A stretch of DNA of 64,000 bases, taken from Eunapius fragilis (Eukaryota; Porifera; Demospongiae; Spongillida; Spongillidae). The stretch lies in assembly GCA_963681505.1 (NCBI GenBank), contig OY811972.1, positions 15,420,610-15,484,609 of the forward strand, read 5' to 3'. Below the pieces are notes generated by a model that was not told where the DNA came from, made no database searches, and saw only the letters and a program-made list of their open reading frames with translations. A program made the position numbers and the translations under genes. Shown piece by piece: positions 643 to 40,384 of the stretch. Within the stretch, counting starts at the first letter, position 1; every line of letters begins with the position of its first letter.

Positions 643-1087
643 TGTGGCAAGTATAGAACTTACACGATTGGTCATATTCTATGTGTGTTATGATTGGCTA
701 TGTTATGCGTGTATATATATGGTTGGTTGCCAGGCAACCGGTTGGTTGTATTTCAGTATTATAGTTTCGATACTTGGAAAAGTATACGTACGTTACAGTA
801 GGATTTCGACCTGGTTAACGTACCCAAATTATTCATAGCGTGGTCTGCGGGTATACTTTTTAAAACCCTTGGATCAGACAGGAGTGCTAGGTGGAGAACA
901 TGTGGGGGGGTATTAGCAGTACCGACTGCAGAGAGCGGCCGCATAGGTTGTACAAGATAAAATGGCCAACGAAATCCAGATCATTTGTAATTGTAATTGC
1001 ACGGCAAATTGGAGCTCATGCTGTTTGCATCTTCTCGTCGCACCGGTCGTTTAAAAACACTTCACATATACAGGTCGTGGTTGCATA
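643..1087 (+). repeat. Candidate 3' LTR of the Ty3-type fossil
   Basis: The sequence after the purine tract starts with TGTGGCAAG, as LTRs usually start with TG, and holds no supported gene. The 3' limit is not clear because a MITE is inserted at 1088, close to or inside the presumed LTR end. No second LTR copy is in the window, so this is inferred from position only. Confidence 0.35.
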
Positions 1088-1338
1088 GTGCATAGAGAAA
1101 GGTTCCCTGCTCATGTTAAAGTTAATGGGCACTCACCGCGCTCGGCCAATATTAGAGGGAGGGGCCGTGTGTTATTGATAGGCGGGCGGTAAATGAAGAT
1201 GGTTAGCTGTTGCTGTATGTATTGCATAACAATCCTTTAAGGCGGCGCACACGGGTAATATATAAGCCATCAATTATCATAGAGTCTAACTTAATTGACT
1301 TTAACATTAAGCAGGGAACCTTTCTTTTCTCTATGCAC
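1088..1338. mobile_element. 251 bp TA-flanked MITE
   Basis: Terminal inverted repeats of about 45 bp (GTGCATAGAGAAA followed by a GGTTCCCTGCT block and an ATGTTAAAGT block) face each other, with a TA dinucleotide on each outer side (1086-1087 and 1339-1340). TA target duplication points to a Tc1/mariner-like non-autonomous element. No coding sequence is seen. The following 170 bp up to the FAAH-like gene hold nothing I can name. Confidence 0.6.
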
Positions 1339-1510
1339 TATACAACCCTACCTAAGTATATATGCATTTAATTAAAGACTTTCAGTAAAATTATCTCACT
1401 CACAAACAAAATAAGCTTTATATACGGCGGTAACAGTATTATCAATTTTATTCAGTTCACAAAATACATTTTATATACGGAGGTAACCTATTCAAGCCAG
1501 TGCTAATTAA

Positions 1511-3385: not shown

Positions 3386-3514
3386 GCGCGCGATCTTTTA
3401 ACTTACAGGAAACCCCTACACAAAATACGCCCTACGCACGTGCGTAAACATTACTGATCTGTTGATAGATAGAAAGTAACCACAGAGTACACGCAGTTGA
3501 CAGATACATCATTA

Positions 3515-3726
3515 CAGTCCACACCTCGCACTAAGGGAAAATTAACACCTCGCACTAAGAGAAAATAAGGGTAATTCATAGGGAGTTAAGCTAACTGTCA
3601 GTGTTCATAGCGGTATCTAATTTAATTAGTTACCGCTATGAACACTGACAGTTAGCTTAATTCCCTATGAATTGCCCTTATTTTCCCTTAGTGCGAGGTG
3701 TTAATTTTCCCTTGAGGTATGGACTG
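3515..3726. mobile_element. Hairpin MITE, copy 1 (TA-flanked, 212 bp)
   Basis: Almost the whole element is one long inverted repeat around a TAATTTAATTAG-type centre near 3620. The ends read CAGTCCAYACCTCGC and its complement, with TA on both sides. A second copy of the same family lies at 5238-5454. It sits about 130 bp upstream of the FAAH-like start codon, so it is close to that gene's promoter. Terminal structure suggests a Tc1/mariner-type non-autonomous element. Confidence 0.78.
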
Positions 3727-4276
3727 TACGTGTACTGTACTGTACAAATAAAATCATATTGGCGGGTATATGATTATCAGTTACACACATCGCATACAGT
3801 AGCGGTTCACTCATATATAGAAAAGTCACAACTCAGTCATTGAGAAAATAAGGCATTTCATCCACTGATCCACCAATTAGAGGGCAGCTGGTGGGTAAAC
3901 TTTTGGCACAGGGCCATTGCCTCCGCATGATCTTCAGTTATTCTTTGTATGCATTGGTTTAGACTGTCTTACCATAAATTACCAAATAAGGGAACAACAT
4001 TCTGTCCTTGTTAAGCCAGCAAGCTGAACCTGTAGGTATGGCACAGTGACAGTTGGAAACTAACAGCTTTAAAAAAACTGCCATAGTCCTGCTGATTGTT
4101 GAAAATGGAGTGGATCTGTGTATGAGATTTGATGCATGCACAGGTAAATTAACAAATGCCACTAAAATTAACCTATTTGTCCGAAGTATTAGACTGTCAC
4201 AACCTTTCAACGGTAAACAGGATATTATCGGATATTTGTACGTAAAACAACAATTTACGTTGATAATATCCTGTTT
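3727..4276. other. Stretch without recognisable gene
   Basis: AT-rich sequence between the first hairpin MITE and the next inverted-repeat element. Short frames on both strands show no family motif. A small imperfect hairpin is present at about 4213-4275 (GATATTATC and GATAATATC arms). I see nothing else. Confidence 0.5.
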
Positions 4277-5185
4277 AATAATTATTTCACCTGGTACAGA
4301 AGAAACTGTTGGTGTACTTAGCAAACCCGCCTGTGGTTGACTATGTTCCTCTCTAGATGGAATTCACTGTTCATGCGCGGCTTTGCTGTGTACATACCGC
4401 TTAGAAATCCGCCCCTTTTTTAATAGCTATGAGAGAAGGGGCGGACCAACCCTACAACCAGTTACTAGGGAAACCTTCAAACTTGCCTCTGCCATCACTG
4501 ACATTGGAGCAAGATCAGGCATTGCTGCTGATGGTTTCTGGGGAGGCCACTTTGAAAAAACGTTTTTTGACGTCAGAGTCCTTTACCCACTTGCTCCATC
4601 TAACACCACACCCACACCCAGTGCTTGCTACCGCAGACATGAAAAAGAAAAACAAAGGGCATATGAGCAACGCATCAGGGAAATAGAGCATGCCTCTTTC
4701 ACCCCCATTGTACTCTCACTACTGGTGGAATGGTTCCAATTGCAACCACTTTCTATAAACACCTGGCAGACTGGCTAGCTTCCAAATGGAACTCATCCTA
4801 CAGCCAAACCATTGGATGGTTGCGATGCCGTCTGTCCTTTTCTCTCCTCTGCTCATCCATCCTATGCATCAGAGGAGCTCGTTCATCAAAGGGGCGTGTA
4901 CCCTGCAGTGTCCCTCTGCCTGTAGACCTAGTGCACAGTGATTCACTGAATCTAGGTTCACTCTGGACTAGAAAGCAACTAGTTGATCTATATCATTTAA
5001 CTTCATTATTTAACTCGTATCTAACATAGTTATTTGAATGTATAATTACATTCCAAAAAAGATTAAGAAGCGCTTATAAACACAGCAAAGCCGCGTGAAT
5101 TCCATTTAGAGAGGAACATAGTCAACCACAGGCGGGTTTGCTAAGTACACCAGCAGTTTCTTCTGTACCAGGTGAAATAATTATT
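4277..5185. mobile_element. Non-autonomous element with ~105 bp terminal inverted repeats
   Basis: Positions 4277-4391 and 5081-5185 are inverted copies of each other with a few changes (shared blocks CACCTGGTACAGAAG, GTTGACTATGTTCC and GCAAAGCCGCG). They enclose a piece of a retroelement coding region at about 4420-5010. No clear target duplication could be defined, so the outer limits are approximate and the superfamily is not assigned. Either a DNA element captured the fragment, or the inverted arms formed around it. Confidence 0.55.
4420..5010 (+). mobile_element. Fossil C-terminal fragment of a reverse-transcriptase element
   Basis: Translated pieces carry 'ADGFWGGHFEKTFFDVRV', 'CYRRHEKEKQRAYEQRIREIEH' and 'IGWLRCRLSFSLL', a series I associate with the C-terminal part of reverse-transcriptase elements common in sponge and cnidarian genomes. 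The D...FFDVRV spacing resembles a PD-(D/E)XK nuclease. The same family occurs at 29410-30420. It is a broken fragment with no RT domain in the window. Whether the parent is a LINE-like or another retroelement class is unsure. Confidence 0.6.
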
Positions 5186-5237
5186 TTTCCGCCTGGAGCG
5201 AATGTGATAATTACCGCTGGAGCGAGCCGCTACTGTA

Positions 5238-5454
5238 CAGTCCATACCTCGCACTAAGGGAAAATTAACACCCCGCACTAAGAGAAAATAAGGGTAATTC
5301 ATAGGGAGTTAAGCTAACTGTCAGTGTTCATAGCGGTATCTAATTTAATTAGTTACCGCTATGAACACTGACAGTTAGCTTAACTCCCTATGAATTGCCC
5401 TTATTTTTCCTTAGTGCGGGGTGTTAATTTTCCCTTAGTGCGAGGTATGGACTG
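5238..5454. mobile_element. Hairpin MITE, copy 2 (TA-flanked, 217 bp)
   Basis: Same family as the element at 3515-3726: near-identical arms, same centre, ends CAGTCCATACCTCGC, TA on both sides (5236-5237, 5455-5456). The two copies differ by only a few bases, which suggests recent spread. Confidence 0.78.
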
Positions 5455-5620
5455 TACCCATCTCGAGTGTAATATAAACGCACTTTATAACTTTAAAATC
5501 CAATTACGTGTCCCTTTTAATAACCGGAGATCATATATAGATGACCGCCGAAACTTTCTGGTTATTAACTTTCTGGTTATTAAAAAAGTTTTACAAGTAT
5601 GCACAACCCCCACCCCACCG

Positions 5621-8600
5621 CTACCCCGTGACGTCCTTCTTGAGGTAGTAAGAGCAGGTCAGCTTGTGTGTCTTCCAGTGCCCCTTCTGGCAGTCGTTGT
5701 TGCAGTAGGCTACCCTCTTGCACGCCGAGCACACCCTGATCCTGTCCAGTATCTCCAGCCGACAGTTCTCACACACCTTGAACTTGTCCCTGGCCGTCCT
5801 ACGCGAGGGCAAACTGTTCGGTAAGGTTGCGGGAGGAGGAGGAGGAGGAGGGGGGACGTCTGCCGACAGCGATGGTGGAGGTTTGGTCACCTCGGTTCCC
5901 CGTGCCTCCGCCACGACCGTCGATCCATTCTCAGGCTCCGCTGGCCCAGCGGGGATACCCCCTACCCTCATCAGTGTCCCTTTCACTTCTTGTGGGGCCA
6001 CGCCCTCACTTGCAAGGCCCACCGCAACAGTGATGTCAGCTTTGACTGGTGGGTGTGGTGACTCCTCCCCCTTGGTAGCTGGACGGCCATCGGGTTTGAG
6101 GTCATTTTGTTTGGCTTCAAGCCCTCCGACCTCAGTCACGTGCTCTCCAGGATTAGTCACATGATCTCCAGTATCAGTCACATGATCTCCAGTTTGAGTT
6201 CCAACCAATAGATCACGGGCTTCTGAGTTAAACACATTGGAATATGGCAGAGTTGAGGGTTAAAGTACAAATAAAAAGAAGAGACATCACAAAAGAGTGT
6301 ATGGCCTCTCTAGGGCCTAGGACCAGTCTCTAGGGCCTAGGACCAGTCTCTAGGGCCTAGGACCAGTCTCTAGGGCTTAGGACCAGTCTCTAGGGCCTAG
6401 GACCAGTCCCTATGGCCTAGGACCAGTCTCTAGGGTCTAGGACCAGTCCCTAGGGCCTAAGACCAGTCTCTATGGCCTAGGACCAGTCCCTATGGCCTAG
6501 GACCAGTCTCTAGGGCCTAGGACCAGTCTCTAGGGCCTAAGACCAGTCTCTAGGGCTTAGGACCAGTCTCCAGGTCAATGCAAACTAACAGATGTTGCTA
6601 AAAAGGGCTCAGAGGAAATAGGATAGCAATCATGGTGGAGAGAAAGTAAAGGGTGGGGGGGTAGGAGGGGAGGAGTGGGTGGTGGGGGGGGGGGGGGCAT
6701 CAGATTAAAAAGATATTACAGCAATAGCACATTTACTGGAGCTAAATTTGTAAAAAGGGAGGGGGCGGGGCAGTTTTTACGGTATAGCAACACAATACCT
6801 GCACTGATGTTCTTCTGTTTCTTCCCTTTTGTGCTACTGCTCCTAGCTTCTCCCCCTCCTCCAACGACGACATCATCCTTTACACCTTCCCCCAGGTGAG
6901 GTACAGGCCCCGGGGCCCCCGGGGCGCACTGCCGTGGTGGTACAGGCCCCGGGGGGCCCTGCCGAGGTGATACAGGCCCCGGGGGGCACTGCCATGGTGG
7001 CACAGGTCCCGGGGGGCACTGCCGTGGTGGCACAGGTTCTGGGGGGCACTGCCGTGGTGGCACGGGTTCTGGGGGGCACTGCCGTGGTGGCACAGGTTCT
7101 GGGGGGCACTGCCGTGGTGGCAGGGGTTCTGGGGGGCACTGTTGTGGTGGTACAGGTCCCGGAGGGCACTGCCATGGTGGCACAGGTCCCAGGGGGGACT
7201 GCCGTGGTGGTACAAGTCCCGGGGGGCACTGCCATGGTGGTAAAGGCCCCGGGGGGCACTGCTGTATGTCACACATCATGGTGGGAGGTTTCCCAGCGAC
7301 CACTCCCTCCCCTGATACATTGTTCACTTTGAATACACCCTCAGTGACCTGGGGTACAGAGAGTGGCCTGACTTTCTCCTTAGGGTAGAGTGGTGAATCA
7401 CTGGATGGCTTCACCACAACGTCATTGTCCACTATGGTGGATGATGGCTCCGCCTCTTCCTCCTCCTCCCCCTCCTCATCCACAGGAACGTCTCCACCAG
7501 CTGGGGGAGTGGGAGGAGAACAATTTTGGGAGTGAAGGGGTTAAAGCGTTGAATGATGACAGAAGTACACTCAATTTGCCATCACTTCACATCACTACAC
7601 ACACATACCTTGGGTCTCAAAGCTGCTAACACCTTACCTTTCGCTGTTTCAACAGTTTTCTTCTTTTTGTTTTTCTTCTTTTTCTTCTTTGATACCTTTC
7701 CACCACCCCCACCACCACCTCCTCCACCTTCTGCACCAGCAGCTCCCCCACCACCGCCACCTCCACCCCCATAGTCTTTTCTCCCCTTCACTTCTTCCTC
7801 AATTGGCATCATTAACCCCTTCTCTCCTAGGACATTCATCAGGTTCAGGTCTTTGCCGAGGACGTAGGCCTTCACCCCAGTGTGGTCCACCGTGGTGAAA
7901 GGACTGGCCTGGGGCGGGAATGACCCGCCAGGAGGGTGGGGAGGAGGGCAGTCGGCGTCCTTACCCCTCCTCTTGTTCTTCTTCTGCTGCTTCGTCTGTT
8001 CCCTCAGCTGGTCCAAGGCACCCATCACGTGGGCATCCAGAGGTCCATCCACACCGTGTGTGAAGGGGATGGCCAGGTAACCCGCAGACGTGCTGTCCAG
8101 CCCCGTGTAGGAGAGGAGGGTCTGAGTGATGGAGGGCTTGGTCCCAGACCTCAACGCCTTCTTCTTCTCCTTCAGCTTCTTCCGCAGCTCCTCGGTGGTC
8201 TGTGCCCTAGGGGGCAGGAGGGCCGAGGTGGGCGGAGTTTTCCGCGGGTGGTTAAGGTGGGGGAACTTGCGCCTGTCAATGTTTCGGTGCTCCGCCAGAT
8301 ACTCCTCCAGCTTCTCCTGGGCGGTGAGGTGTCGTTCCGTGAACTCCTTGGCCGACACCAGTCGGGTTGGTCCCTTCTCCGACTCGGGTTGAAACGTCAG
8401 GTACCCGGTCCCTTCCTGGTGCGCAAAGACGTCGTAGTCCTTGGAGACGCACGCCTGTATCTCTTCCACGGAGGCCTCCCCCTCCAAGATGGTGGTCCCG
8501 TCCTCGGAGCTGATGATGGTGGCCTTGTCGTAGCTGCCGTCCACCTTGTAACCTTGCTTCCTGAGGGTCTCCGTGTCCACCTGGGCCACTATGATGGTCC

Positions 8601-9981
8601 TCTTCTCTCTGGGCCTGCCCCGGGAGTCCAGGAGGTTAGGGGTAGGGATGGCCTGCCTCACCACCGTCGTCTGGGGGTCCAGCTGTATCGTCGGGATTAA
8701 GTTGACGGGCGGGGCGGGGAACAGGCCCTTCTTGAAGTGAGGTTCCCAGGGCTTGGGCTTGAAGAATATACCCGGGGGGTTGCCTTTGCCGTCTTTGGCG
8801 ATGGCAGGCTTTACCCGGGAATCGTCCCTACCCCGTCGTCCTCTACCCCCCTCCTCCTCTTCGTCCTGGTCGGTGCTGCATCGCTCGTAGAACCTCCTCT
8901 GTTCCTCCTCGCTCCTCCTGTTCAGGTTATCCAGGTGGTCCTGCGGCCACACCAGAGTACCCTGCCTCTTTACCCGCTCGTGCCCGGAGGGCATCTCCGC
9001 GCCCCCGTCGATGGACCGGTACGCGGCTCTCTCGCTCTTATTAAGGTACACCTTGGGAACCCCGGAGGGTCCGAACATATCCGTGAGGAGCTTGACGTAG
9101 TGGTAGAAGCGCGGGAGCTCGAAGAGGACGAACACCACGGGGATCTTCTTCACCCCCATGGGCATCTCCAGCGACAGGTACCGCTTAAGCACACCCTCGT
9201 ACTCACCCGCGTCGAATTGCAGGACCCCGTCCCGACGGTACCGCTCCTTGAACGCCGTGTACTTCTCCACGTGCATCATCACTATGGTGACCCACATCAT
9301 GAACGAGTGCAAAGTCGGGTTGTTGAAGAGCGTGTCCCTCATGAGGTCCAGCAGGACGACAATCTTGTCCCTGTTGCAGGCGAACGTGCGCCCCATCATC
9401 TCGTACATCTCCACGTACTCGGGGGATATGCTGGTGGGCACCTGGGGGCTCGTGAGAAGCGTCTCCGTCCTCAGGCGGAGGTACTTCAGCTGCCTCAGCT
9501 CCGCGTACTCGGCCCGACACCACTCTTCGCACACGCGGCGGGCGTTCTCGAACATGAACGAGGCCACCCCCGTGTGCTGCTCCCTCCGGAGTTCTCCGTT
9601 CTCCGTCGCCGCCACCAGCATCAGCTCCAGGAGGTCGTGAAGGACCTCGTGGTGCTGTATGCAGGCGTGGTTGGCGGCCATGACAGACATCGAGGGCTGA
9701 ACCTTCACTTCGCTGGGGAGGTCGTCGCAGAGGCTACCGTTGGACGAGGCCGCGTTTTCCACCCGGCCGCAGCGCCGGCACTGGACGCTGGCCAGGCCGA
9801 CTACCCCCACGTCCAGCATGTAGACCTCCAACTTGTCTGACAGGAGGGACGACTTGTCTCGCTTGTGGCCGCACGAGCGACAGGACCTCGCTAGGATCTG
9901 GTCGGTCACGGCGTTGTGCAGACGTTTTCGGAAGTCTTCGTCGCTCTGGTCTGACTTGGCGTCCACCCGCGGACTGGCCAT
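5621..9981 (-). CDS. MYND zinc-finger protein, gene A (three exons, ~1215 aa)
   Basis: Exons that join in phase: 9981-7638, 7500-6799, 6222-5621. The start is the ATG of 'MASPRVDAKSD'. The N-terminus has two CxxC pairs (SCRSC and QCRRC, about 45 residues apart), then a helical block with 'HHEVLHDLLELM', 'RRVCEEWCRAEYAELRQ' and 'YEMMGRTFACNRDKI' that is shared with gene C. The middle is charged and has an EEEEGG run; exon 1 ends in glycine runs and a lysine-rich KKKKKKNKKKK run (possible nuclear signal). Exon 2 encodes a 'QCPPGPVPPR'-type decapeptide repeat. Exon 3 ends in a complete MYND finger (CENC...CSAC...YCNNDCQKGHW..H...C), a protein-interaction zinc module. I do not recognise the N-terminal domain, so the function is unknown; a nuclear scaffold or regulator is a guess. 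Coding GC is clearly higher than in the neighbouring elements. Confidence 0.82.
6300..6573. repeat. 20 bp minisatellite in intron 2 of gene A
   Basis: About 13-14 tandem units of CTAGGGCCTAGGACCAGTCT with a few substitutions. It lies between exon 3 and exon 2 of gene A. Gene B does not carry it in the matching interval, where homology to A has ended. Confidence 0.85.
6905..7268. repeat. 30 bp coding minisatellite in exon 2 of gene A
   Basis: About 12 tandem units of 30 bp that encode a Gln-Cys-Pro-Pro-(Gly/Glu)-Pro-(Val/Leu)-Pro-Pro-(Arg/Trp) decapeptide on the minus strand. The unit length keeps the frame. Gene B has only one such unit at the same place (about 32830-32860), so this array expanded or contracted after the duplication. 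Confidence 0.85.
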
Positions 9982-10140: not shown

Positions 10141-10979
10141 GATTAATTAATTTTATGCATTGCGTCCCGGCCACGCCCCCCCCCCCCCTTCCATTACACT
10201 ACCCAGTGACGTCCTTCTTGAGGTAGTAAGCAGGGCTCCACCAGCTAAGATTAGCCAGCCAGTAGCCACCCCTTATTGGTTTTAGCCAGGGATCAATTGT
10301 AGCCGATAACAAATAGCCACTTAGCCAATAATAAACGTGAATACGTTTACAGTTCATGCAGTATTACCACGCGGACTTGCGGTTCAACATGGCTGAGTCG
10401 AGTTGCCCTTCCGAAGAACAAGGTACTAGCACTAATACAAAACGGATCCGATTTTCGTCCCTTAATGAATGGTCTCTGGGTTACTTTCAAAAAAACCTTG
10501 CATCTAACAAAGCATACTATATCTGCAATCTTAAGCGCAAGCTTCCATGTGGTGAGAGTAGAGATTGTGGAACTACATACTGTAAGACCACTGGACCTGC
10601 AAACCTTCGTTACCATCTTAAAAATGCACATGGTTTAGAAGCCCCTTCGTACCTGAAAGAGCTGGTAGTTCTAGCGAATGATAACAAAGGCTTAAAAAAA
10701 CAGATGGCCTTGACAAGAATGTTTGCTCCAAGTACAGACAGCGCAAAGACTCAGGTTGAAAAACTTGCTCTAGCATGGTGTATGAACCTGCGTATGTCGT
10801 TCAAACTCCTGCGGGATCCGTATTTCATTAGTGCTTTTTCAGCTAGCATTCCTCCGGGATTTAAAGAATCTGATCTCACTACTGCAATAATCGAGTGTGA
10901 TAACAAGCTGTGTGAATGTGTAAACACTATTGTTCCGAGTGGGTCAAAAAGGGTAACAATGCTAAACATACCGGAATAA

Positions 10980-11638
10980 TGGCGTCATTAAACCGGAATA
11001 ATGGCGTCATTCAACTCATTATCTTAGTGCATTGTTTGGAGCCACTTTTTGCACAACCAGAATGAAACGCAGCAACATAGATAGTCTAGGCATGTAGAAA
11101 GGACCTTTCTGTACATATACGTACCTAATTCAGATGCAGAAAGTTTTTTATACTCAGCGGGGAGGTGTTTCTATTGTACGCATGTGCAATTGGTGCGGGA
11201 GACTACTATTAGTCTGATTCAAAGTGTTCCCGTCTGGAAGTTTTTCGAGACATGCCACACCATCCGACATTACGTGCTGACATTGTTCTATATATCAAGA
11301 TACATTTCAAAGTGGCTCTGTTATAATCTTGCTAGTTTTTCGAGCACAAAAAGTACGAATATTTGACTTTTTTGCATGGTAGACTGGAATACGACACAAC
11401 GCTGTCTTGAGAGAAATGCTTTCCTTAATAGTGTGGATGCACTTTATTGCATTCAAAGTACTATGCGATTGTTCAAAGCTCACAGTTGTCTGTACTTTAT
11501 ACCCTCCGGGCCGCTTCGACCTGACTTAGTGACACGCCCCCCCCCCCCCCCCCCCCCTACACATGCAACATGAATGCATGTTAATACAATGGCATATCCA
11601 TTAAGTAAAAATACATACGTTTGTCCATGAATTCCTTA

Positions 11639-11687
<49 letters not shown>

Positions 11688-13183
11688 CACACACACATGC
11701 ACACACACATACACACAGATCACAGCTATATGCATGCACAGGAATACAGAAAGAAAAACACAATTATTTATAATCTTTTTAATATAAATCAGTCATCCTT
11801 AAGAAGTTTTTTAAGAGCCACTGAGAGCTAGTTGTGCATGCAGCTAGCTGCATGGTTGTGTGCATCTGGTTGAGGAGCCAGAGCTAGTTGTGGGCCAGTG
11901 CTACCAGAGCTGGTTGTGGGGCCAGAGCTAGTTGTGGTGCCAGAGCTGGTTGTGGGGCCAGAGCTGGTTGAGGTCTAGGGTATGGAGCCAGAGCTGGTTG
12001 TGGGGCTAGGGCTGGTTGTGGAGCCAGGACTGACTGTGGGGCCAGGGCTGGTTGTGGAGCCAGAGCTGGTTGTGGAGCCAGAGCTGGTTGTGGAGCCAGA
12101 GCTGGTTGTGGAGCCAGGGCTGGTTGTGAAGCCAGGGCTGGTTGTGAAGCCAAAGCTGGTTGTGGGGCCAGAGATGGTTATGGGTCCGGCATGGAGCTAG
12201 AGCTGGTTGTGGAGCCAGGGCTGGTTGTGGGGCCAGGGCTGGTTGTGGAGCCAGAGCTGATTGTGGAGCCAGGGCTGGTTGTGGAGCAAGAGCTGGTTGT
12301 GGTGCCAGAGCTGGTTGTGCAGCCAGAGCTGGTTGTGGGGTTGTGCATTCACGAGGCCAGGGTAGCACAGTTGTACATGAGCCCAGGGTTGGTGTGGGAC
12401 CAGAGCTGGTTGTGAGGCATGGTTGTGGGCCAGAGCTGGTTGTGGGGTCGTGCGTGCATGGGGTCAGGGCTGCATGGTTGTGCATAGGCCCAGGATTGGT
12501 TCTGAGGGTAGGGCTTATTGTGGATGGGGACAGGTCTGGTTGTGCATGGTGTAAGGGCTGGTTGTGCATGGGGTCAGGGTTGGGTTGTGGGGGTAGGGCT
12601 GGTTGTACATGGGGTCAAGGCCAGTATGTGAGACCATGCAAGCATGCATGGACATTAGAACCTTTCATTTTCTAAAATGCCAGTGTCTGTTGTATAAAAC
12701 AGTCCGTGCACAACTATAACGTAGTACTATACTGGTTAACCGTTTTGACCTAGTTGCTAGGTCTCGTGCACGAACTGTTAACTTCAAAACATATAACAGA
12801 GCCACTTCGAAAACAAAAAAATTATCAAGTTCATTCCATGTACAATACAACGCTATGCGCTGTTGGAGCCAGAAAACTTCCTCAGTTTGTACACAAGCCA
12901 ATGAGTAATGACGTACCGCTAAAAGTGTATATGTTTTAAGTCGCACAGTGTTCGATTGGCTTAAGCTACGATCATGGTACTTGTTTTGTCGGATAGAGTA
13001 CAAGTTTTATAACCATAAAACAGCGTCAAATATGCTACCAAGTGTTGTGTTAAAAAAGAGTAGCGCACATTCCAACGTTAATCGATTGCAATATTTCGTT
13101 GCTAAGCACACGCATGCAACCATTTCAATATTTCTGGGCGTAGGTCTTTTTGACCCACGTTTCAATGTATTGAAACAGTAGTG
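10980..13183. other. Noncoding insert or intron inside the hAT gene, with satellites
   Basis: Separates the BED part from the core of the transposase. It begins with a doubled CCGGAATAATGGCGTCATT motif (10972-11010), holds a poly-C run (about 11537-11558), a (CA)n tract (11641-11683) and an 18 bp minisatellite. Short inverted similarity exists between about 11310-11330 and 12790-12810 (AAGTGGCTCTGTTATA). It may be a further inserted element, but I found no clear ends. Confidence 0.45.
11883..12620. repeat. 18 bp minisatellite (GGTTGTGGAGCCAGAGCT)
   Basis: About 40 degenerate tandem units of an 18-mer, with longer variants towards 12350-12620. The unit length is a multiple of three, so it produces long but meaningless open frames on both strands. 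Confidence 0.85.
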
Positions 13184-14643
13184 TAAAGGAACTTCTTAGC
13201 AATTCTGTAGCATCACTGGAGCTGGATGGTGGAAAGGATGTTAATTCCCGAAAGCTAATAGGTTTGGGTGTTTTGAAGGATGGGAGATGCCTTTGTTGGG
13301 ATCTCTTAGATACTGATGGTGACACGTTAGATACAGGTTATTATAACACAGTCATTACAGATGCAGTACTTAAGATGGAGAAAGATGGCTTATTCATTGC
13401 TTCTATTACAGTGGACAATGAAGCTTCTCCAAATGCTGGTATCAGTCAAGCTATTACTGAAGGGTACCTAAAATGGCTTCTTCATTTTCGATGTGGTTGT
13501 CACACCCTGGAATTGCTAATGGAGGATCTGGCAAAAGCAATTCCCTCAGTTGCTTTAGCTATAAAGGTAGCCAAAGATACAGCAATCAATATAAAAAACC
13601 ACACACGTCTTCTTAAAGCATTGAAAACTGCCCAACTGGAGACTCCAGGTCATAATGTTTTGAAAGTAATATTGCCATGCAATACTCGCAAATGGTCAAG
13701 TGGCTTCCTTTGTATAGCTCGTATACTGCAATTACAACATTATTTGATAGCAATGGCTGCTTGAGATGACTTGTAAAGTGAAAATTTTATTTTGCCAGAC
13801 TTTCAGTTGCTTGAGTATGCCAGAAGTGCATTGTTTGAGTTCTATTTAGTTGAGCAACTATTGCAACGTGATTCAGCCAACGTAATCCATCTCTCATTCT
13901 TTTGGTACTCTATCAGTACTAAGGTGAAACAAACTGTGATCAACCTGCGTCAAAAAGGTTTTCACCCTGAAGCAAATGCACTTGAAGAAAAAATGAAACA
14001 ACGACAGCTGCTTATGGAAGAGTCAGGAGTGTTCCATTTGTGTCTTATCTTGTGGCCAGAGACAGTAAACCTTCCAAATCTGCAAAGATATGCTAACAGA
14101 GAAATAGAATTTCTTGTTATGCGTCAGTGGAAGAAGTGGCAGAAGTTTGCAGATATTGTTGGTTTTCCACAGGAATATCGCACCTCTGATTCTCAAACAG
14201 ATGACGAAAAGCAAACTAATTTGATCCTCAGCTGTCGTTCAGATTTGATGAAGCATGTTACCACTGGGGATACAGCCATCCGTACTGCTAGAGCCCATTT
14301 TCCGAGGGAAAGCAAAATAGCTGAAGAAAAGTTAAAGCATTGTGATAAATTGCCTAAGCCATCGAAGGATTCAAAGGCACATGCATTTAACCTTAATGTC
14401 TATTCTACCTTCGTCCTATATAAAGGACAATTGTCCTATATAAAGGACGTTTTTCAAGAGGATATTGTATGTAAATCTTGCATGATTAATTTCTGTTGAA
14501 TGTTGGAATAATTTTACCACAGGTTGAGCTATTTGTAAATGTAATATTAATAGCACGTGACGATAATGGAATATAGTATAGATTGATAAGATACAACAGC
14601 ATTTCCAATCTGCGGTTAAACATGGTCAAGCCCTTTAACAACG

Positions 14644-14804
14644 CACAGGAAAAAAAATCGTGTTCCGGACCTTGGGTTTTAACCAATCGACCTTGGGATC
14701 TGTTCCATCAAACGTATTCAAAGTCTTTGAATACGTTTGATGGAACAGATCCCAAGGTCGATTGGTTAAAACCCAAGGTCCGGAACACGATTTTTTCCCC
14801 TGTG
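14644..14804. mobile_element. 161 bp near-perfect foldback inside the piggyBac-like element
   Basis: Two ~78 bp arms are near-perfect inverted copies, with ends CACAGG...CCTGTG and a 3 bp direct repeat ACG on both sides (14641-14643, 14805-14807). A 3 bp target duplication with CACA-type ends suggests an EnSpm/CACTA- or Harbinger-like MITE. It is the innermost layer of the insertion stack. Confidence 0.75.
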
Positions 14805-14809
14805 ACGGT

Positions 14810-17167
14810 GACAGAGTATCTGGAAGGTCCAAGGCACTCCAAGGGAAGACAGGAGTTGTCATTGGGGCAGAAGGAAGTGGGCATAAGCGAAAAATAGCTG
14901 TGAAATGGGATGATGGGTCCCAATGAGCTTACTCTTTGAAGGCTATTGACCGCGATGGGTGTGTCAGCAACAAACGGATGAGGCTGCGCTATGATGATTG
15001 TGAAATGGAAGGTAGAACGCACTATGCGGAGAGCAGTGAGAGTGATGACGACGAAGCTATGTCCAGTGATGCTGATCCGACTGAAACAGAGGTTGCAGAG
15101 ACCCTTGACCACGAACGGTACGCAAAAGGGAACGAGTATTATATATTTTGTGATACGCAGAAGGGAACGAGTATTATGATACGCAAAGGGAACGAGTATT
15201 ATCTATTTTGTGAGAATGAGATTATATATGTACGTGCATATGCTACATACATATGTATGGATGTTCATTCACATGTAACTGTATTATTGCTTACTGCAAT
15301 AGAGTTGAGACTGAAGATCCATTGCTATGTCCCCATGGACAAACTTGGAAAGTGGTGGAACGTGTTGAAATCGATCAAGCTGAAAGCACCAAAGATTACT
15401 GTACCCTATTCAAATGGAGTAATATCCAAGATGAAAAGTGTGAACTGGATTACTTCCTTCTGATGTATCCAAGACAACATTTGAGCAGTTTGCTAAAATA
15501 CACAAGTGAGAGGTTGCAGGCTAACAGTGAATTACCTTTATTTGAGGGTGAATACTTCAGATGGATAGGGATTCGTCTAGCAATGGTACTCGAAAGTAAA
15601 AGAGGGCCTTTGAACATCTACTGGAGCGATATACAGGATCCTAACTCTGTATATACCCCAGGGTGCTATGGAAAACGTTTTGGAATGACTCGTAAAAGGT
15701 TTCAAGCTATCTCAGCGAATCTTTCTTTGTCATCAGAACTTTGTTCATCAAAAGCCGTTGATATAGTAAGTGTTCTAAAAATATGAATGGATAATGCTTT
15801 ATACATCTGATTTTGTTTAGGACCCATGGCATCCAATTTGAGAATTCATTGAAGCTTTTGTTCAGCGAAGATTGGCAGTGGTCACACCTGGCAAATATTT
15901 AGTAGTTGATGAGTGTATGAGTTCATGGTAGGGCTTTGATGGTGAGTACACTGCAACTGGTTTGCCACATGTAACAAAGATACCACGCAAGCCTGAGGGT
16001 GTAGGGGCCGAACTAAAGTCCTGTGCTGATGGCATGTGAGGAATAATTTTGAGCCTTGACATAATGGAAGGTAAAGAATGCCAATCTAAGAAGGATTATG
16101 AAGAATTAGGTGCAGAACCAGCTGTGACACTAAGGCTTACGCAAAGCTAATTTGGTTCTGGTAGGATTGTCATTGCAGACAGTGCATTTGCTTCTGTGAA
16201 GACATTGGAAGCACTAAGATCTAGAGGGCTATATTTTATGGGGATAGTTAAAACTGCCTCAAAGCGTTATCCTAAAGAGTTTTTGAGCAGTTGGTCATCG
16301 GGAGACAGGAGAAATCCCCCTGAGTGTGGTAGCCATATAGTTTTGGAATCAATATGCAGTTACAACAATAAGATGTTTGCATTGGCATGGGCAGACAAGA
16401 AACCAAAGCACATTATTTTCAATGCTGAAACAACTTTGGCAGGGAAGGACAGCATTCGCAAGCGACACAGAAAAGAAATTGAGAAGGGATGCTTTGTCAC
16501 AATTGCTTATGAGAAGCATGTAAAACGACCAAAAGTCATACAAAAGATGTATGAATATTTTTCCACTATAGACATCCATGATCATTTCAGGCAGGGATCA
16601 CTACAATTTGAAAGAAAATGGCATACACATTGCTGGTGGCATAGAGTATTTAGCTCAGTATTGGGGATGGTGATCCCAGATGCCTTTCTAGCATACAGGC
16701 ATGAACTGAGGCAGAAGGATATAATTGAAGACCAAATTGATGATTTTTCTACATTTCTTGGTCATCTTGCCCATCAGCTCATTTTCAATGCATTTACTCA
16801 GGAGGCTGTACGACGGCGATCTCAAGGGAAACCCAAAGATGATGTTCCTGTCGTTGAGGTAATATGCATGTGTATGTCCAAATGATAACTCAGTGGAGTT
16901 TTTAATCATCTCTTTATCCTGTACTATCATCAGGTTGTTCGTACTCATTGTGCAAAGAAGCTTAGCACATTGCCAAGCTACAAGCCTGGAGATCAACTAA
17001 GATGTCGCTCATGCCACCAGAAGTGTTCATATTTCTGTGATCTCTGTAGCATCTTATCATCAGATGCTAGCTCAAAAAACATCATCAGTGCTTTTTGTAA
17101 CCCAATTACTAAGCCATGCTTCAAAGAACACATTGAATCAATGTCCATTGGAGCAGATGGTGACTAG
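14810..17167 (+). pseudogene. piggyBac-like transposase, broken
   Basis: Pieces in order: acidic N-terminus (about 14936-15120, 'SESDDDEAMSSDAD'), DDE_Tnp_1_7 core start (15320-15786, 'DYFLLMYPRQHLSSLLKYT'), first catalytic Asp region near 15900 ('YLVVDECMSSW'), second at 16170 ('IVIADSAFAS'), third in 'STIDIHDHFRQGS' (about 16560), and a C-terminal Cys-rich ribbon at 16995-17060 ('CRSCHQKCSYFCDLC'). The frame is broken by several stops (for example after SSW) and probably held introns (15787-15820, 16862-16933). The remaining 17168-17809 is noncoding 3' sequence. Confidence 0.82.
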
Positions 17168-18304
17168 ATTTTGTTATTGACGGTTCTTATGTAGACTTCA
17201 TACCTATGTACATGTAACTAGGTTCATTCTACAATGTTCAAAGCTGATATCAGGAATGCAATTTCATGTGTTTCATATACACTACATTAAGCTCAACAAC
17301 GTATAACCTGCAATTATTAAATTTTGCTACTAGATTTGCTTTGTTTATATACAGTAGGTAAGTGTTGTACATACACGTAATTCCAATGACTTGCGCGGTA
17401 TTTGCATTTTTACGGTGTTGCTAAAAATAAACACACCAAAGTAACTACATGTAAATATTTATATTTTCCAGGTTGTGTAATGATTGTATATTACCTAGAA
17501 AGTGTTCAAATTCAGAAGAAATTATTGCTGACCTCTGTGAACTGATCCAAGTGCAGTACTTCAAAAACGATATGATATTATGACGATGACATCAACATCA
17601 TTTCATCTTTTCAATCTTCACGGCATCAAGTGCTTATAGTAATCTATATGAAACTCCTATTTTATGAATCTACATGCTATTTGGGGTCAAAATTCAAAAT
17701 TACGTGCATAAGTCATTGAAATATTCAACAAATCATCACTTATTATTGCGTCCTATTTATAGGACAACGCCTGTCCTATATCTAGGACAACAGGCGGGTA
17801 GATTAGACATTAAAGCACACTGGGAAAGTATTGGAGCAGATATACCTGCATTATTTGTATTGTACTACGTTTTAAGCTGTTGTGCTGCCTCTGAAGCTGG
17901 AGTTGAGCGGTTCTTTTCTACTGAGGGCCTTTTTCATGATGATGTGCGTTCATCAATATCTCCAGTCATAACTAAAGCAGTCATCCGCACCCGCTGGAAC
18001 CACGATTTGGTGAAAAGGCAGTATGTCAGAGAGTTCCCAATGGACGTACAAGATGTTGAGTTTGATGAATAGAGTGTGTTTATTGTACTTTTGTCCTCAC
18101 ATGCTGAATGTAATTTATAGAAGCAATATTATATATTAGCCAGTTAGCCAATAAAATTGTAAATAGCCAGAGATTAGCCAGCCTGCCTCATTAGCTACTT
18201 AGCTGGTGGAGCCCTGGTAGTAAGAGCAGGTCAGCTTGTTGTCTTCCATTGCACCTTCTGGCAGTCGTTGCAGGAGTTTGAAAGGCTGTGTGGCCCTTGT
18301 TAAC

Positions 18305-26454: not shown

Positions 26455-26567
26455 TTTGAATGAGCGTATCGTCGTAATTTCGAGCGCTGCTGCGCGCCGT
26501 TCTTCGAAATCTTGTTAGAGCACAATTCCTTTCCAGAAATGTTGAAACAGGTACACGCTAGCGTTAA

Positions 26568-29118: not shown

Positions 29119-29409
29119 TTAATGATTACGACGATACGTACATGGTGTACGAGCCTTTTTTTTTTTTGGTGGGGGCGGAGAGGGTGGGGGGGCTTAGTAC
29201 GCGTATTCTACTGTATATTTACAGCAATCCTATAATGATCCACGATCGCGAGTTAAGTTAATTCGTGATCTCCATAACTTTTTTTTGTTACATGTATGCC
29301 ACATTGACACAATTATACGTCAGTGCATTTATATCGTTATCTCAGTAAGTATTCATGAGCGCCCTGTTTGAAAAGCATTCTGCGGGAAACACTGTATCTG
29401 TGCGAGTGC

Positions 29410-32737: not shown

Positions 32738-35661
32738 CTGCACATGTATTCTCCTGTTTCTTCGACTTTGTACCACTGCTCTTACTTCCCCCTCCTCCTC
32801 CAATGACAACATCATTCTTTGTACCTTCTTCCAGGTGAGGTACAGGTTCTGGGGGGCACTGCAATGGTAGTACTGTGTCAAACATCATGGCGGGAGGATT
32901 CCCAGCGACCACTCCCTCTGATACATTGTTCATTTCGAATACACCCTCAGTGACCTGAGGTACAGAGAGTAGCCTAGCTTTCTCCTTGGGGTAAAGTGAT
33001 AAATCACTGGATGGCTTCACCACAACGTCATCATCCACCATGGTGGATGATGGCTCCGCCTTTTCCTCCACCTCCTCCTCCTCATTCACAGGAACGTCTC
33101 CACCAGCTGGGGGAGTGGGAGGAGAACAATTTGGGAGTGAAGGGGTTAAAGCATTCAATGACAGAAGACAAGCAAACATTTGTAAAACACTCAATTTGCC
33201 ATCACTTTACATCTCTACACACACACACACACATACCTCAAACCTTAGGGCCATCACTTTACAGCACTACAAACACATACATACCTTGGGCCTTAGGGCC
33301 TCTCAAAGCTGCTAACACCTTACCTTTCGCTGTTTCAACAGTTTTCTTCTTTTTGTTTTTCTTCTTTTTCTTCTTTGATACCTTTCCACCATCGCCACCA
33401 CCACCTCCTCCACCATCTGCACCAGCACCTCCCCCACCACCTCCACCCCCATAGTCTTTTCTCCCCTTCACTTCTTCCTCAATTGGCATCATTAACCCCT
33501 TCTCTCCTAGGACATTCATCAGGTTCAGGTCTTTGCCGAGGACGTAAGCTTTCACCCCAGTGTGGTCCACCGTGGTGAAAGGACTGGCCTGGGGCGGGAA
33601 TGACCCGCCAGGAGGATGGGGAGGAGGGCCGTCGGCGTCCTTACCCCTCCTCTTGTTCTTCTTCTGCTGCTTCGTCTGTTCCCTCAGCTGGTCCAAGGCA
33701 CCCATCACGTGGGCATCCAGAGGTCCATCCACACCGTGTGTGAAGGGGATGGCCAGGTACCCCGCAGACGTGCTGTCCAGCCCCGTGTAGGAGAGGAGGG
33801 CCTGAGTGATGGAGGGCTTGGTCAAAGACCTCAATGCCTTCTTCTTCTCCTTCAGCTTCTTCCGCAGCTCCTCGGTGGTCTGTGCCCTAGGGGGCAGGAG
33901 GGCCGAGGTGGGCGGAGTTTTCCGCGGGTGGTTAAGGTGGGGGAACTTGCGCCTGTCAATGTTTCGGTGCTCCGCCAGATACTCCTCCAGCTTCTCCTGG
34001 GCGGTGAGGTGTCGTTCCGTGAACTCCTTGGTCGACACCAGTCGGGTTGGTCCCTTCTCCGACTCGGGTTGAAACGTCAGGTACCCGGTCCCTTCCTGGT
34101 GCGCAAAGACGTCGTAGTCCTTGGAGACGCACGCCTGTATCTCTTCCACGGAGGCCTCCCCCTCCAAGATGGTGGTCCCGTCCTCGGAGCTGATGATGGT
34201 GGCCTTGTCGTAGCTGCCGTCCACCTTGTAACCTTGCTTCCTGAGGGTCTCCGTGTCCACCTGGGCCACTATGATGGTCCTCTTCTCTCTGGGCCTGCCC
34301 CGGGAGTCCAGGAGGTTAGGGGTAGGGATGGCCTGTCTCACCACTGTCGTCTGGGGGTCCAGCTGTATCGTCGGGATTAAGTTGACGGGCGGGGCGGGGA
34401 ACAGGCCCTTCTTGAAGTGAGGTTCCCAGGGCTTGGGCTTGAAGAATATACCCGGGGGGTTGCCTTTGCCGTCTTTGGCGATGGCAGGCTTTACCCGGGA
34501 ATCGTCCCTACCCCGTCGTCCTCTTCCCCCCTCCTCCTCTTCGTCCTGGTCGGTGCTGCACCGCTCGTAGAACTTCCTCTGTTCCTCCTCGCTCCTCCTG
34601 TTCAGGTTATCCAGGTGGTCCTGCGGCCACACCAGAGTACCCTGCCTCTTTACCCGCTCGTGCCCGGAGGGCATCTCCGCGCCCCCGTCGATGGACCGGT
34701 ACGCGGCCCTCTCGCTCTTATTAAGGTACACCTTGGGGACCCCGGAGGGTCCGAACATATCCGTGAGGAGCTTGACGTAGTGGTAGAAGCGCGGGAGCTC
34801 GAAGAGGACGAACACCACGGGGATCTTTTTCACCCCCATGGGCATCTCCAGCGACAGGTACCGCTTAAGCACACCCTCGTACTCACCCGCGTCGAATTGC
34901 AGGACCCCGTCCCGACGGTACCGCTCCTTGAACGCCGTGTACTTCTCCACGTGCATCATCACTATGGTGACCCACATCATGAACGAGTGCACGGTCGGGT
35001 TGTTGAAGAGCGTGTCCCTCATGAGGTCCAGCAGGACGACAATCTTGTCCCTGTTGCAGGCGAACGTGCGCCCCATCATCTCGTACATCTCGACGTACTC
35101 GGGGGATATGCTGGTGGGCACCTGGGGGCTCGTGAGAAGCGTCTCCGTCCTCAGGCGGAGATACTTCAGCTGCCTCAGCTCCGCGTACTCGGCCCGGCAC
35201 CACTCTTCGCACACGCGGCGGGCGTTCTCGAACATGAACGAGGCCACCCCCGTGTGCTGCTCCCTCCGGAGTTCTCCGTTCTCCGTCGCCGCCACCAGCA
35301 TCAGCTCCAGGAGGTCGTGAAGGACCTCGTGGTGCTGTACGCAGGCGTGGTTGGCGGCCATGACAGACATCGAGGGCTGAACCTTCACTTCGCTGGGGAG
35401 GTCGTCGCAGAGGCTACCGTTGGACGAGGCCGCGTTTTCCACCCGGCCGCAGCGCCGGCACTGGACGCTGGCCAGGCCGACCACCCCCACGTCCAGCATG
35501 TAGACCTCCAACTTGTCTGACAGGAGGGACGACTTGTCTCGCTTGTGGCCGCACGAGCGACAGGACCTCGCTAGGATCTGGTCGGTCACGGCGTTGTGCA
35601 GACGTTTTCGGAAGTCTTCGTCGCTCTGGTCTGACTTGGCGTCCACCCGCGGACTGGCCAT
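32738..35661 (-). CDS. MYND-family gene B, partial copy of gene A without its MYND exon
   Basis: Exons 35661-33324 and 33106-32738, same splice sites and phases as gene A. Exon 1 is almost identical to that of A at the protein level, with only scattered changes and shorter glycine runs. Exon 2 has one proline-rich decapeptide instead of about twelve. It ends with a good donor (TGTGCAG|GTAATG, phase 1), but the third exon with the MYND finger is not found downstream. The next downstream exon that fits in phase is the FN3 exon at 31961. The gene is therefore either a truncated copy, a chimera, or one allele of A placed in tandem by the assembly. Confidence 0.72.
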
Positions 35662-35884: not shown

Positions 35885-38800
35885 CTACCCAGTGACGTCC
35901 TTCTTGAGGTAGTAAGAGCAGGTCAGCTTGTGTGTCTTCCAGTGCCCCTTCTGGCAGTCGTTGTTGCAGTAGGCTACCCTCTTGCACGCCGAGCACACCC
36001 TGATCCTGTCCAGTATCTCCAGCCGACAGTTCTCACACACCTTGAACTTGTCCCTGGCCGTCTTCCTCGCCTTCACGCTGGGCTGCAGCGACACTGTGTC
36101 GTCGGGGAGCCCATCTGTGGGCGTGGTCAAGTCCTCGCCGTTGGTCTTGTTTGTGGGGGTGATGGTGGGGATGTCAGCAGGGGAGGGTGATGGTGTAGTG
36201 AGGGTGGGTTTGGTGACACGAGTCGACTGATCGCTACGCTCCAGCTGTGAGGTGGTGAGGGTGTAAGTGTCCTGCACCACGCCAAGGCTGTCTCTAACGG
36301 CTAGACCACTTGTATCCTGACCACGCCCCCTGGCCTCCTCACCGAGGACAACCATCCCATCCCTTGGGTCCAACACCCGGGCAACAGAGACCTCATCCTT
36401 CAGGATGGGCTTTTCTGTTTTCACTTGAAATTTATCTATTCCTCCTCTTGGTGTCTCCGTCTGGGTCGTATTTTGGCACACTTTTTCATCTGACAATTTC
36501 ACCTTGGAATAGTCTGTAGACTCCAATGTGGGGTTTATGTTGCCAGGGGTGGGGTTTATGTTGCCAGGGATGGGGCTTATGTTTCCAGGGATTGGATTTA
36601 TGTTGCCAGGGGTGGGGTTTATGTCGCCATGGGTGGAGCTTAAGCCTGTCTTGTTGAGGGCCTCAACGCAGCTAGACTCCCCGCCACTTAAGATTACACT
36701 GTCTGCAGCTGCCTCTTTCTTTAACGGCCCAAGATCCTTACCACCATCAGACTTCCCCCCATCCTCATGGAGCTTCCCCACCACCGCTGCCTTGTTCGAC
36801 TTCTTCTTCTTCTTCTTTCCCTTCTGTTCCAGCGCGGACGTTTGAACCTCATGGGACACACCCTCACCTTTCGGCCCTGCACTACCAGGGGGGAGGAGTT
36901 TGTCGTTGGCAGAGCTCGTATCCCCTTGACCCACGCACTTGGTACCAAGGCTCGTGGTCCCCTCACACAGCTTGGAGGAGGAGGAGGAGGAAGTCTTGTG
37001 TTTTGCTTGGAACGGCCGAGAGTTGATGGGTTCCTGGACTGCTGTAACGCTGGCTGTGTCCATGAGCTCACCTGTGTGGTGTTGAGTGTACATGTGTGGT
37101 GCATGTGTGTGGGGTGTTTGATGAGCAAGTGTGAATGTGTGTGTACATGTGTGGTGTTGTGTGTACATGTGTGGGGTGTTTGATGAGCAAGTGTGAGTGT
37201 GTGTGTACATGTGTGGTGTTGTGTACATGTGTGGTGTTATTCGTACATGTGTGGGGTGTTTGATGAGCAAGTGTGAGTGTGTGTGTACATGTGTGGTGTT
37301 GTGTACATGTGTGGTGTTATTCGTACATGTGTGTGGAGTGTTTGATGAGCAAGTGTGAGTGTGTGTGTGTACATGTGTGGTGTTATGCGTACATGTGTGT
37401 GGGGTGTTTGATGAGCAAGTGTGAGTGTGTGTGTACATGTGTGGTGTTGTGTGTACGTGTGTGGGGTGTTTGATGAACAAGTGTGAGTACGAATACATTC
37501 CAAGGTGCACAAGGATCTCGTACAATTATACACGTACATACTAAGTTCACAGACTCACAGCACTGAGATGCATCTTACACACCACACATACATGTAAAAT
37601 ACACATGTGAACGTGAGACTGTGCATGTAGTGTGCATGTGTGCTGTGTGTGATGTGTGCATGTGTGCTGTGTGTGATGTGTGATGTGTGTATATGAAGTG
37701 GTATGTATGCATGTGTGGTGACCACGTACTTTGCTTTCCCCTGCCCCTCCTCTCCTTCTTCCTCATCATCTCCCACCTCATCCTCTCCTCCTCCAGGTCC
37801 CTCTCCAGCTTCTCCTGGTTGTACTTCTGGAACACCTCGTCCGTGTCGGTCCAGAGGGCGTGCCGGTACAGCTCCAGTATGCTGAGCCTAGCCACGGCCA
37901 TGGGGAACCCTATGGAGGTGATGGTCTTCAGGTCACCCTCCAGGTCGTTGTCGTAGTCCTTCCTTGAGGTCCTCTCCCTCGCCAGCTTCACCCCCTTCAT
38001 GATGTACTCCTCCAGGTACTCCAGCATCTTCCCCGTCCAGTTGGTCGTGAAGGGGATACCGGAGAGGTCGTCGGCCCCGTTGGCAAAGGGCACAATGTAC
38101 CCGCCCCCACTCCTGGAGGAAGAGGAGGAAGAGGAGGAGGCCCTCGAAGACACCTGCTGGTACATGGGGGGGACCTGCCTAGCCGACACCATGTTCTTCC
38201 TACTCTCGATGGACGACTTGAGCTTCCTCTTGAGGTCGGCCCTCCGCAAGGGGGGCCTCCCCTTGGCCTCGATGACCTCCCTGTACCTCTTCTCGGCCAC
38301 CTGCTGCGTCATGGCGTCGTTGCTCTTCATGAGCAGTCTCAGCTCCTCCTCACTGCAGTCCTCCATGAACTTCTCGATCCTCTTCTGCTCCTCCATGTGG
38401 TACGAACACTCCTCCCCCTCGGGGGGCACAAATATCTGGTACTTGTGGCACATGTAGTCCCGCACGCGGACGATGTCCTTCGAGTCGACCACGATGTGCT
38501 CCACCATCCCCTTCTCCGAGGCCACGAGCAGGGCGGTCCCCTCCCTCCCCTCGGCACAGGGTTGCCTGTACCTCCTCAGTACCTCCATGTCCACCTCGGC
38601 CACGATGAAGCGCATGTAGTCCACGGGGCCCGTGGGACGGGGGAGGCTGGCCAGGGCCTCGCGGATGTTGTCGGGGAGGTTGATGGGCGGGTTGGTGATC
38701 CAGGTCTCGAAGGGAGGGGTGGGTTTGGCGTCGGGGGGGAAGGTGAGGGAAGTGAATTTGCCAGGGCACGGTAGTATGGAGGAGGAGGAGGAGGAGGAGG

Positions 38801-40265
38801 AGGGGATGATGGAAGAGGAGGTGGAGGAAGAGGTGGAGGTGGAGGCGGAAGGGGTCTTGATAATGATTATGGACTTGGGAGATGGCATGCTGCTACTTCC
38901 ACTAGTACTGGGCTGGTCACCTTTTGAAGACGCAGACCCTGCCACAGCCACTGCTTCAGCAAGTGTGGCCACCGGGGGCGGTAGGCGGAGCTTCCCCGAC
39001 TCGTCCAAATGCTCGTTGCATCTCTTCACCAAGTTCTCCAGCCCTATCTGCTCCACCTTGAGCATCGCCGCCACGGCAACGGAGGGCTCGAGGCGGGCTT
39101 TGATCTGCTCGTAGAGCTCGCATTTGAACTGGTCCCCCGTGAGCATCTTCGTGGGTTGGCTCTCCGACGTCTGGTCTTTGGGTTCGTCCTTCAAGCAGTA
39201 CACGGTGGAGGCTACGGGGGCGAAAGGGAAGCTCTTCCTCAGCTCGACAGCGGCGGACACGTCCCCGTTCGCTGCTGCGAGTGCCGCTCTTTCCGCGGGC
39301 GTGAGAAACGTCGTCGTCGGAAGAGCGCTCCCGGTCCCGCCACTCGCGTCCCGCCCGCGCGAAGACAGGAACTCCACGTAGTGGTAGAACCGGGGCATCT
39401 CGAAAAGGACGAACGCCACGGGTATCTTCCTGATGCCGAGCGGCAGCTCGAGCGAGACGAGGCGCTGGTCCAGCTCCTTGTACGAGGCGCTGCTCGAGCT
39501 CACCCGCCCCGCGTGGTGAGCGACAAACTCTTCGCAGCGGTCGACGTGGGTCATGACCAGGGTCACCCATGTCCACACGCTGTCGTGCGTCGGACGGACG
39601 ATGAGGGTGTCCCTGATGAGCTCCAGCAGGCAAAGGATCTTGTTTCGGTTGCCCTGGAAGCTGTTCCCCATCATCTCGTACATCTCGCGATATTCCAGTG
39701 AATTCTCGCGCGCGAGGCTCGGCTCGTAGGCGGCCACTTGGGACTCCGCGTAGGAGGTGGCCCGGGTCTCCCTGAAGAGGCGGAGGTACTTCTTCTGCCT
39801 CAGCTCCGCGTACTCGTCCCTGCACCACTCCTCACACACGCGCCTGACGTTGTCGAACATGAACTTAGCTATCTCGGCGTGTTGCTCCTTACGCTCCAAC
39901 TTGTCGTCGATGGCGGCCACTTGCAAGAGCTCCATGAGGTCGTGAAGGACTTCGAAGTGGGTCACGAGGAGGAGACAACGGAGGGCCTCGTTCGGTCGGA
40001 TGCGGAACCTCATTTCCGCGGGATCGGAGAACGCCGGGTCAGAAACTACGTGGCTTTCCCGCTGGCACCGAACGCAGCGGACGAGCTGGCTCGCCACCAC
40101 GCCGCTGTCCCAGAGTTGGAAGAAGGGCGTGACTCGCCGCATCACGGCCCTGGACGTCCCCCTCGTGCCGCAATGGTCGCATGGCCGCGACTCGCTGTAG
40201 ATCTTGCTCGCAAATGCTTCGGTGAACGTATCAAGAAAAGATGGACTAGCGTAGTACTTGGACAT
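35885..40265 (-). CDS. MYND zinc-finger protein, gene C (two exons, ~1240 aa)
   Basis: Exons 40265-37730 and 37071-35885; donor GCAAA|GTACGT and acceptor CACACAG join in phase. Start is the ATG of 'MSKYYASPSF'. N-terminal CxxC pairs ('CDHCG', 'VRCVRCQ'), then 'THFEVLHDLMELLQVAA', 'RRVCEEWCRDEYAELRQKK', 'YREMYEMMGNSF' and 'IRDTL' mark the same domain as in A. It continues with a serine-rich linker and a long charged C-terminal half. Exon 2 has a short 'GNINPTPGNINP'-type repeat and ends in the MYND finger. The last 170 bp of coding sequence are the same as in gene A, though the rest is strongly diverged. Function unknown. MRPL45 starts 119 bp away on the other strand. Confidence 0.82.
37075..37490. 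repeat. Minisatellite in the intron of gene C
   Basis: Units of about 55-90 bp made of GTACATGTGTGGTGTT, GGGGTGTTTGATGAGCAAG and (TG)n blocks, repeated about six times right upstream of the exon 2 acceptor (in the direction of transcription). Confidence 0.8.
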
Positions 40266-40384
40266 CACTCGAAGCACCTTTATTTTTTCACCCTCTTTCA
40301 CTTGAAGCTATACGTCCACGTCTTGTTTATTTTCATTCATCGATACCGTATATATCGAATTATCTGTAATTAGGCAACAATATA
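40266..40384. promoter_or_regulatory. Shared divergent promoter of gene C and MRPL45
   Basis: Only 119 bp separate the two start codons. It contains a TCGATACCGTATATATCGA partial palindrome near 40338-40357. Such a short gap leaves no room for two separate promoters, so a bidirectional promoter is inferred. Confidence 0.55.

Follow-up and report, generated by a model that had tools for sequence, protein, structure and literature searches.

An identical MYND-coding block at the ends of two diverged sponge genes is probably a recent gene-conversion tract

How can two neighboring genes that have diverged strongly over their N-terminal exons end in a stretch of DNA that is the same in both, base for base? 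This question is raised by three related genes, A, B, and C, of the sponge Eunapius fragilis, which we analyzed in a window of 64,000 nucleotides (contig C2, positions 15420610 to 15484609; the genome comprises 219 Mb in 24 contigs). All three genes are located on the minus strand, with B lying between A and C, and the latter two are tandem paralogues in the same orientation, 30 kb apart. The limits of the exons were deduced from reading frames and similarity, and the coordinates are collected in Table 1.

Table 1. Components of the A, B, and C gene cluster, tail X and the element that interrupts it (positions are those of the window)
Feature	Positions	Strand	Remarks
Gene A N-terminal exon, ungapped part	7771..9981	-	1.1% different from B
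Gene A last exon (linker and MYND tail)	5621..6235	-	By ORF; 5′ limit inferred
Gene B N-terminal exon, ungapped part	33451..35661	-	Close twin of A
ORF with gene C N-terminal exon	37575..40301	-	44% amino-acid identity to A over 281 columns
Gene C last exon (linker and MYND tail)	35885..37075	-	5′ limit chosen in an open frame running to 37525
Gene A MYND tail, exact copy of tail C	5628..5798	-	zf-MYND in its ORF
Gene C MYND tail, partner of the A patch	35892..36062	-	zf-MYND
30-bp minisatellite	6918..7262	.	Site of the drop in A/B identity
Tail X, left piece	10176..10230	-	55/55 to the 3′ end and 3′ flank of tail C
Tail X, right piece	18217..18270	-	53/56 alignment columns identical to tail C
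hAT-like element within tail X	10231..18216	.	CAGGGCTCCACCAGCTAAG ends, GTAGTAAG target duplication

A preliminary description of the locus had placed the identity at 5629–5798 and 35893–36062, and over these coordinates 170 of 170 bases indeed agree. The exact match is one base longer (5628), i.e., 171 bases, and BLAST extends it to 178 bp with a single mismatch (5621–5798 against 35885–36062). Both copies are in frame on the minus strand and, as judged from the frames, form the end of a putative last exon. The limits of the block are as abrupt as had been asserted, on both sides, whether they are read from the exact match, from the codon comparison given below, or from the match counts of the flanks. 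Just beyond the end that lies upstream in the protein, 9 of 18 bases agree (P 0.04); past the opposite, downstream end, the agreement is 7 of 8 bases, up to and including the shared TAG stop codon (P 8e-4), and similarity then ceases. Both P values presuppose a nominal match rate of 0.28 and refer to stretches that were picked after inspection of the sequence. The linkers of A and C just upstream of the block yield a local alignment score of 44, which was reached by 191 of 500 shuffles, and for the last part of the linkers alone, 45 of 500 shuffles reached the score. Thus, the linkers align no better than shuffled sequences, and prior homology of the last exons of A and C is plausible rather than demonstrated. 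A genome-wide DNA search with the 170-base query recovered 2 full copies, those of A and C, together with one 55-base piece at 18216–18270, whereas the linker of A (5799–6300) and the 3′ flank of tail A each retrieved only itself in such a search. Minisatellites and repeats abound in the cluster, and an assembly error, either a collapse or a false copy of sequence, has to be considered as the source of the match. The sequence adjoining the two copies differs, however, and a match of just 171 bp is, in our judgment, short for a false duplication; such an artefact is scarcely credible.

The contrast between the block and the rest of the two genes is most apparent at synonymous sites. The N-terminal exons of A and C are strongly diverged, as originally noted, and when they are aligned by codon, 63 of the 109 comparable fourfold sites, summed over 12 rows, differ. 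By contrast, none of the 18 fourfold sites in the 56 codons of the block differs (0/18 vs 63/109; Fisher P 1.9e-6), and when the two codons beyond the block are included in the tail, 1 of 20 sites does (Fisher P 9.9e-6), the sole exception being a threonine codon with its third base immediately beyond the edge of the exact match. Codon by codon, then, this one pair of neighboring genes passes from nearly saturated synonymous divergence to none at all across sharp boundaries, which supports the proposal of the preliminary description, namely, gene conversion or a recent transfer of the MYND module. Chance or codon bias is rejected as the cause: GC3 is 0.90 in the tail and 0.84 and 0.81 in the N-terminal exons, and under the pooled N-terminal codon usage of A and C, the probability of 56 identical codons is about 1e-15 (log10 P -14.9). 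The fourfold-site contrast likewise rejects conservation alone, in agreement with the earlier contention that shared ancestry by itself is insufficient.

The encoded domain is a MYND finger. The ORF of tail A matches the Pfam profile zf-MYND (PF01753) over its full length with an E value of 6.6e-10 (39.3 bits) and that of tail C with an E value of 2.5e-9 (37.5 bits), the curated cut-off being 22.7, and the nearest relatives in the PDB, as identified with phmmer, are SMYD2 (5.8e-6) and DEAF1 (1.1e-4). The tails of A and C resemble the fingers of SMYD2 and DEAF1 in this full-length profile match but, unlike the zf-MYND reference, are joined to an N-terminal domain for which no Pfam profile exceeded the cut-off (best E value among the N-terminal ORFs, 0.058). 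The C protein found no relative among solved structures at E values up to 1, and the structure predicted for the N-terminal domain of B from a three-row alignment had a mean pLDDT of 47.1, too poor for a fold search.

The search of the genome with the tail protein (E up to 0.001) returned at least 29 matches, headed by A and C with 143 and 135 bits; among the matches listed, the next one scores 35.6 bits, and the other 27 show 35–43% protein identity. The corresponding search for heads, with protein B as the query, yielded, among the matches listed, B, A, and C plus a weak match (25 bits) that contains three stops. The genome tally, among the matches listed, stands at three heads and only two intact close tails. 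The existence of many further family members is rejected because, among the matches listed, only the tails of A and C exceed 36 bits and only the heads of A, B, and C were recovered. Pattern matching in two collections in which an animal gene would be surprising, one of prokaryote genomes and one of viral contigs, produced 216 and 165 stretches, respectively, among which no relative was confirmed. The search with the tail protein also bears on a broader form of the conservation argument, in which plain strong constraint extends to the DNA itself, for instance, through an overlapping element or an antisense reading. In its favor, the MYND finger is a conserved domain, and one frame of the opposite strand runs through the block without a stop. 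Yet the heads of the same genes have diverged at fourfold sites at which the block has not, the limits of the block are abrupt, and the level of identity among the other tail matches listed indicates that the family is not frozen. We therefore regard conservation of either kind as very improbable.

A separate observation concerns the more distant MYND matches themselves. Of the 29 matches listed, 25 are located on two contigs, C12 (18) and C3 (7), where many of these clustered genes fall within open frames of more than 2000 aa. One such frame, at positions 699–8192 of an extract of C12:7215500-7225000, is a single frame of 2497 aa with three MYND stretches and also matches OAS1_C (oligoadenylate synthetase), DUF4470, beta-helix, and, weakly, TPR profiles. 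If the other frames on C12 and C3 are alike, they would represent an expanded family of giant OAS-MYND proteins that would be worth a study of its own.

Comparison of A with B adds a second layer to the history of gene A. The proteins encoded by the N-terminal exons of A and B are 99% identical; of 737 codons, 17 differ synonymously and 7 change the amino acid (dN 0.0047, dS 0.034). Along the two genes, substitutions amount to 15/230 (6.5%) in the upstream region, 25/2211 in the N-terminal exon, 16/260 (6.2%) over the end of exon 1 and intron 1, 21/234 (9.0%) in exon 2, 25/111 (22.5%) in exon 3, and 55/163 (33.7%) in intron 3, such that identity drops from 91% in exon 2 to about 78% in exon 3 at the 30-bp minisatellite of A. 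With a head close to that of B and a tail identical to that of C, gene A is, as judged from these sequence comparisons, a mosaic of two histories: B-like at the head and C-like at the tail. For B itself, the genome search with the tail protein found no MYND tail, and a cysteine-pattern scan of the window for a lost B tail returned A and C only. Downstream of B, on the minus strand at 31690–31980, there is a stretch that, by eye, resembles a fibronectin type III exon.

The two events in gene A need not differ in age. Zero changes in the 33.7 synonymous sites of the block (56 codons) set a 95% upper bound of about 0.085 on dS, and at the dS of the A/B N-terminal exons, zero changes in the tail would be seen with a probability of 0.32. 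Thus, the copying of the tail could date back as far as the event that involved the N-terminal exons of A and B; a separate, later event at the tail is not proved.

The 55-base piece recovered by the DNA search belongs to a third tail, X, which is located upstream of the N-terminal exon of A and is split in two by a hAT-like element. Of the 55 bases of the left piece, 13 form a run of C, and the right piece, counted from 18216, departs from tail C by two substitutions and a one-base deletion. Tail X carries the C-type 3′ flank and is, as far as this flank is concerned, a sister copy of C, and head A and tail X stand in the same arrangement as head B and tail C. The element, about 8 kb in length, displays the same 19-base end on both sides, in inverted orientation, and this copy is flanked by an 8-bp target duplication. 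Target duplications of 8 bp are the rule for the hAT superfamily, and the pattern of the element fits a hAT-type transposon. The 100 bases at its start have matches at 12 genomic loci, its own included, and when all 12 were read in both orientations, 9 showed the 19-base end with at most one mismatch. Four ORFs inside the element (166–235 aa), compared with Pfam, had no match at E values up to 0.01.

Several other features of the window can be mentioned in passing. A DDE_Tnp_1_7 transposase frame, of what we take to be the piggyBac-type family, occupies 26786–27913 on the minus strand and is bracketed by 158-bp inverted copies (26564–26721 and 28965–29122). At 18620–22018, also on the minus strand, there are Roc- and COR-like frames with weak Pfam matches, below the curated cut-offs, next to which subsequent exons appear death-domain-like by eye. 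Finally, a plus-strand frame of 662 aa without a Pfam match (43573–45561) occupies the same place as a long series of similar repeats.

Taken together, these observations suggest that the last exons of A and C have, with good probability, recently undergone interlocus gene conversion over the block of 171–178 bp, or an event indistinguishable from it. Under this scenario, the MYND-coding end of one gene would have been copied over the homologous end of the other, in either direction, in the course of repair. This small cluster appears to have been homogenized piecemeal in other parts as well: gene A is far closer to B in its upstream sequence, N-terminal exon, intron 1, and exon 2 than in exon 3 and intron 3. 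A and C have homologous heads, and the MYND module terminates each gene in frame, at the same stop codon; the bases that match beyond the block and the common stop are as expected if the two ends were homologous beforehand.

Alternatively, gene A could have been tail-less, like B, and become chimeric by gaining the tail of C or X through duplicative insertion or at the junction of a tandem duplication. In the latter variant, duplication of a segment consisting of a B head and a C tail would leave a B-type head followed by a C-type tail, just as in A; indeed, the segment from the N-terminal exon of B to tail C is repeated as that from the N-terminal exon of A to tail X. Given that the linkers show no significant similarity, with the A linker finding only itself at the DNA level, and that our searches revealed no tail in B, the acquisition of a copied tail by A through insertion is a real rival, unlikely but to be taken seriously. 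A simple tandem junction would bring along the flank of C, as in X, whereas tail A has a boundary at either end and a 3′ flank of its own, which makes such a junction unlikely. Furthermore, A and B can be aligned through exon 3 and intron 3 at 22–34% divergence, older than one recent duplication, and the bases flanking the block match slightly beyond it. On balance, we infer conversion rather than insertion.

The preliminary description had gone a step further, concluding from the identity that special pressure keeps the MYND end the same in both proteins, perhaps because both bind one partner. This conclusion does not follow: a recent copy would be identical even if selection played no part, and near-identity of this kind is also seen between the N-terminal exons of A and B and in the noncoding sequence next to them. 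No selection would thus be needed to account for the block, and the functional inference of a common binding partner is unsupported. A more ambitious proposal is that the MYND end is a module repeatedly copied between neighbors (A, C, and the dead copy X), with heads copied separately (A and B), in a cluster that reshuffles heads and tails, and that recurrent copying of the MYND end is kept by selection for a shared partner; we consider this improbable. Regardless, the two ends of gene A have different histories, so that a tree of the cluster built from whole proteins would be misleading, and identity between paralogues should be considered with caution and not be taken as functional constraint.

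The process proposed here, gene conversion, is an ordinary and already known one, of which this locus is an unusually clear case. In Caenorhabditis, surviving conversion tracts are reported to cluster at 50–200 nt (PMC3966223), and a tract of 171–178 bp fits these published lengths. The sponge pair resembles the duplicates described from Caenorhabditis (PMC3966223) and from teleosts and yeast (PMC10503786) in the short tract, the location on the same chromosome, and the abrupt drop in synonymous divergence. Unlike in those duplicates, the remainder of A and C is strongly diverged, at the level of protein identity of the heads given above, so that the tail alone matches, and gene A appears to have been homogenized with different neighbors at its head and at its tail.
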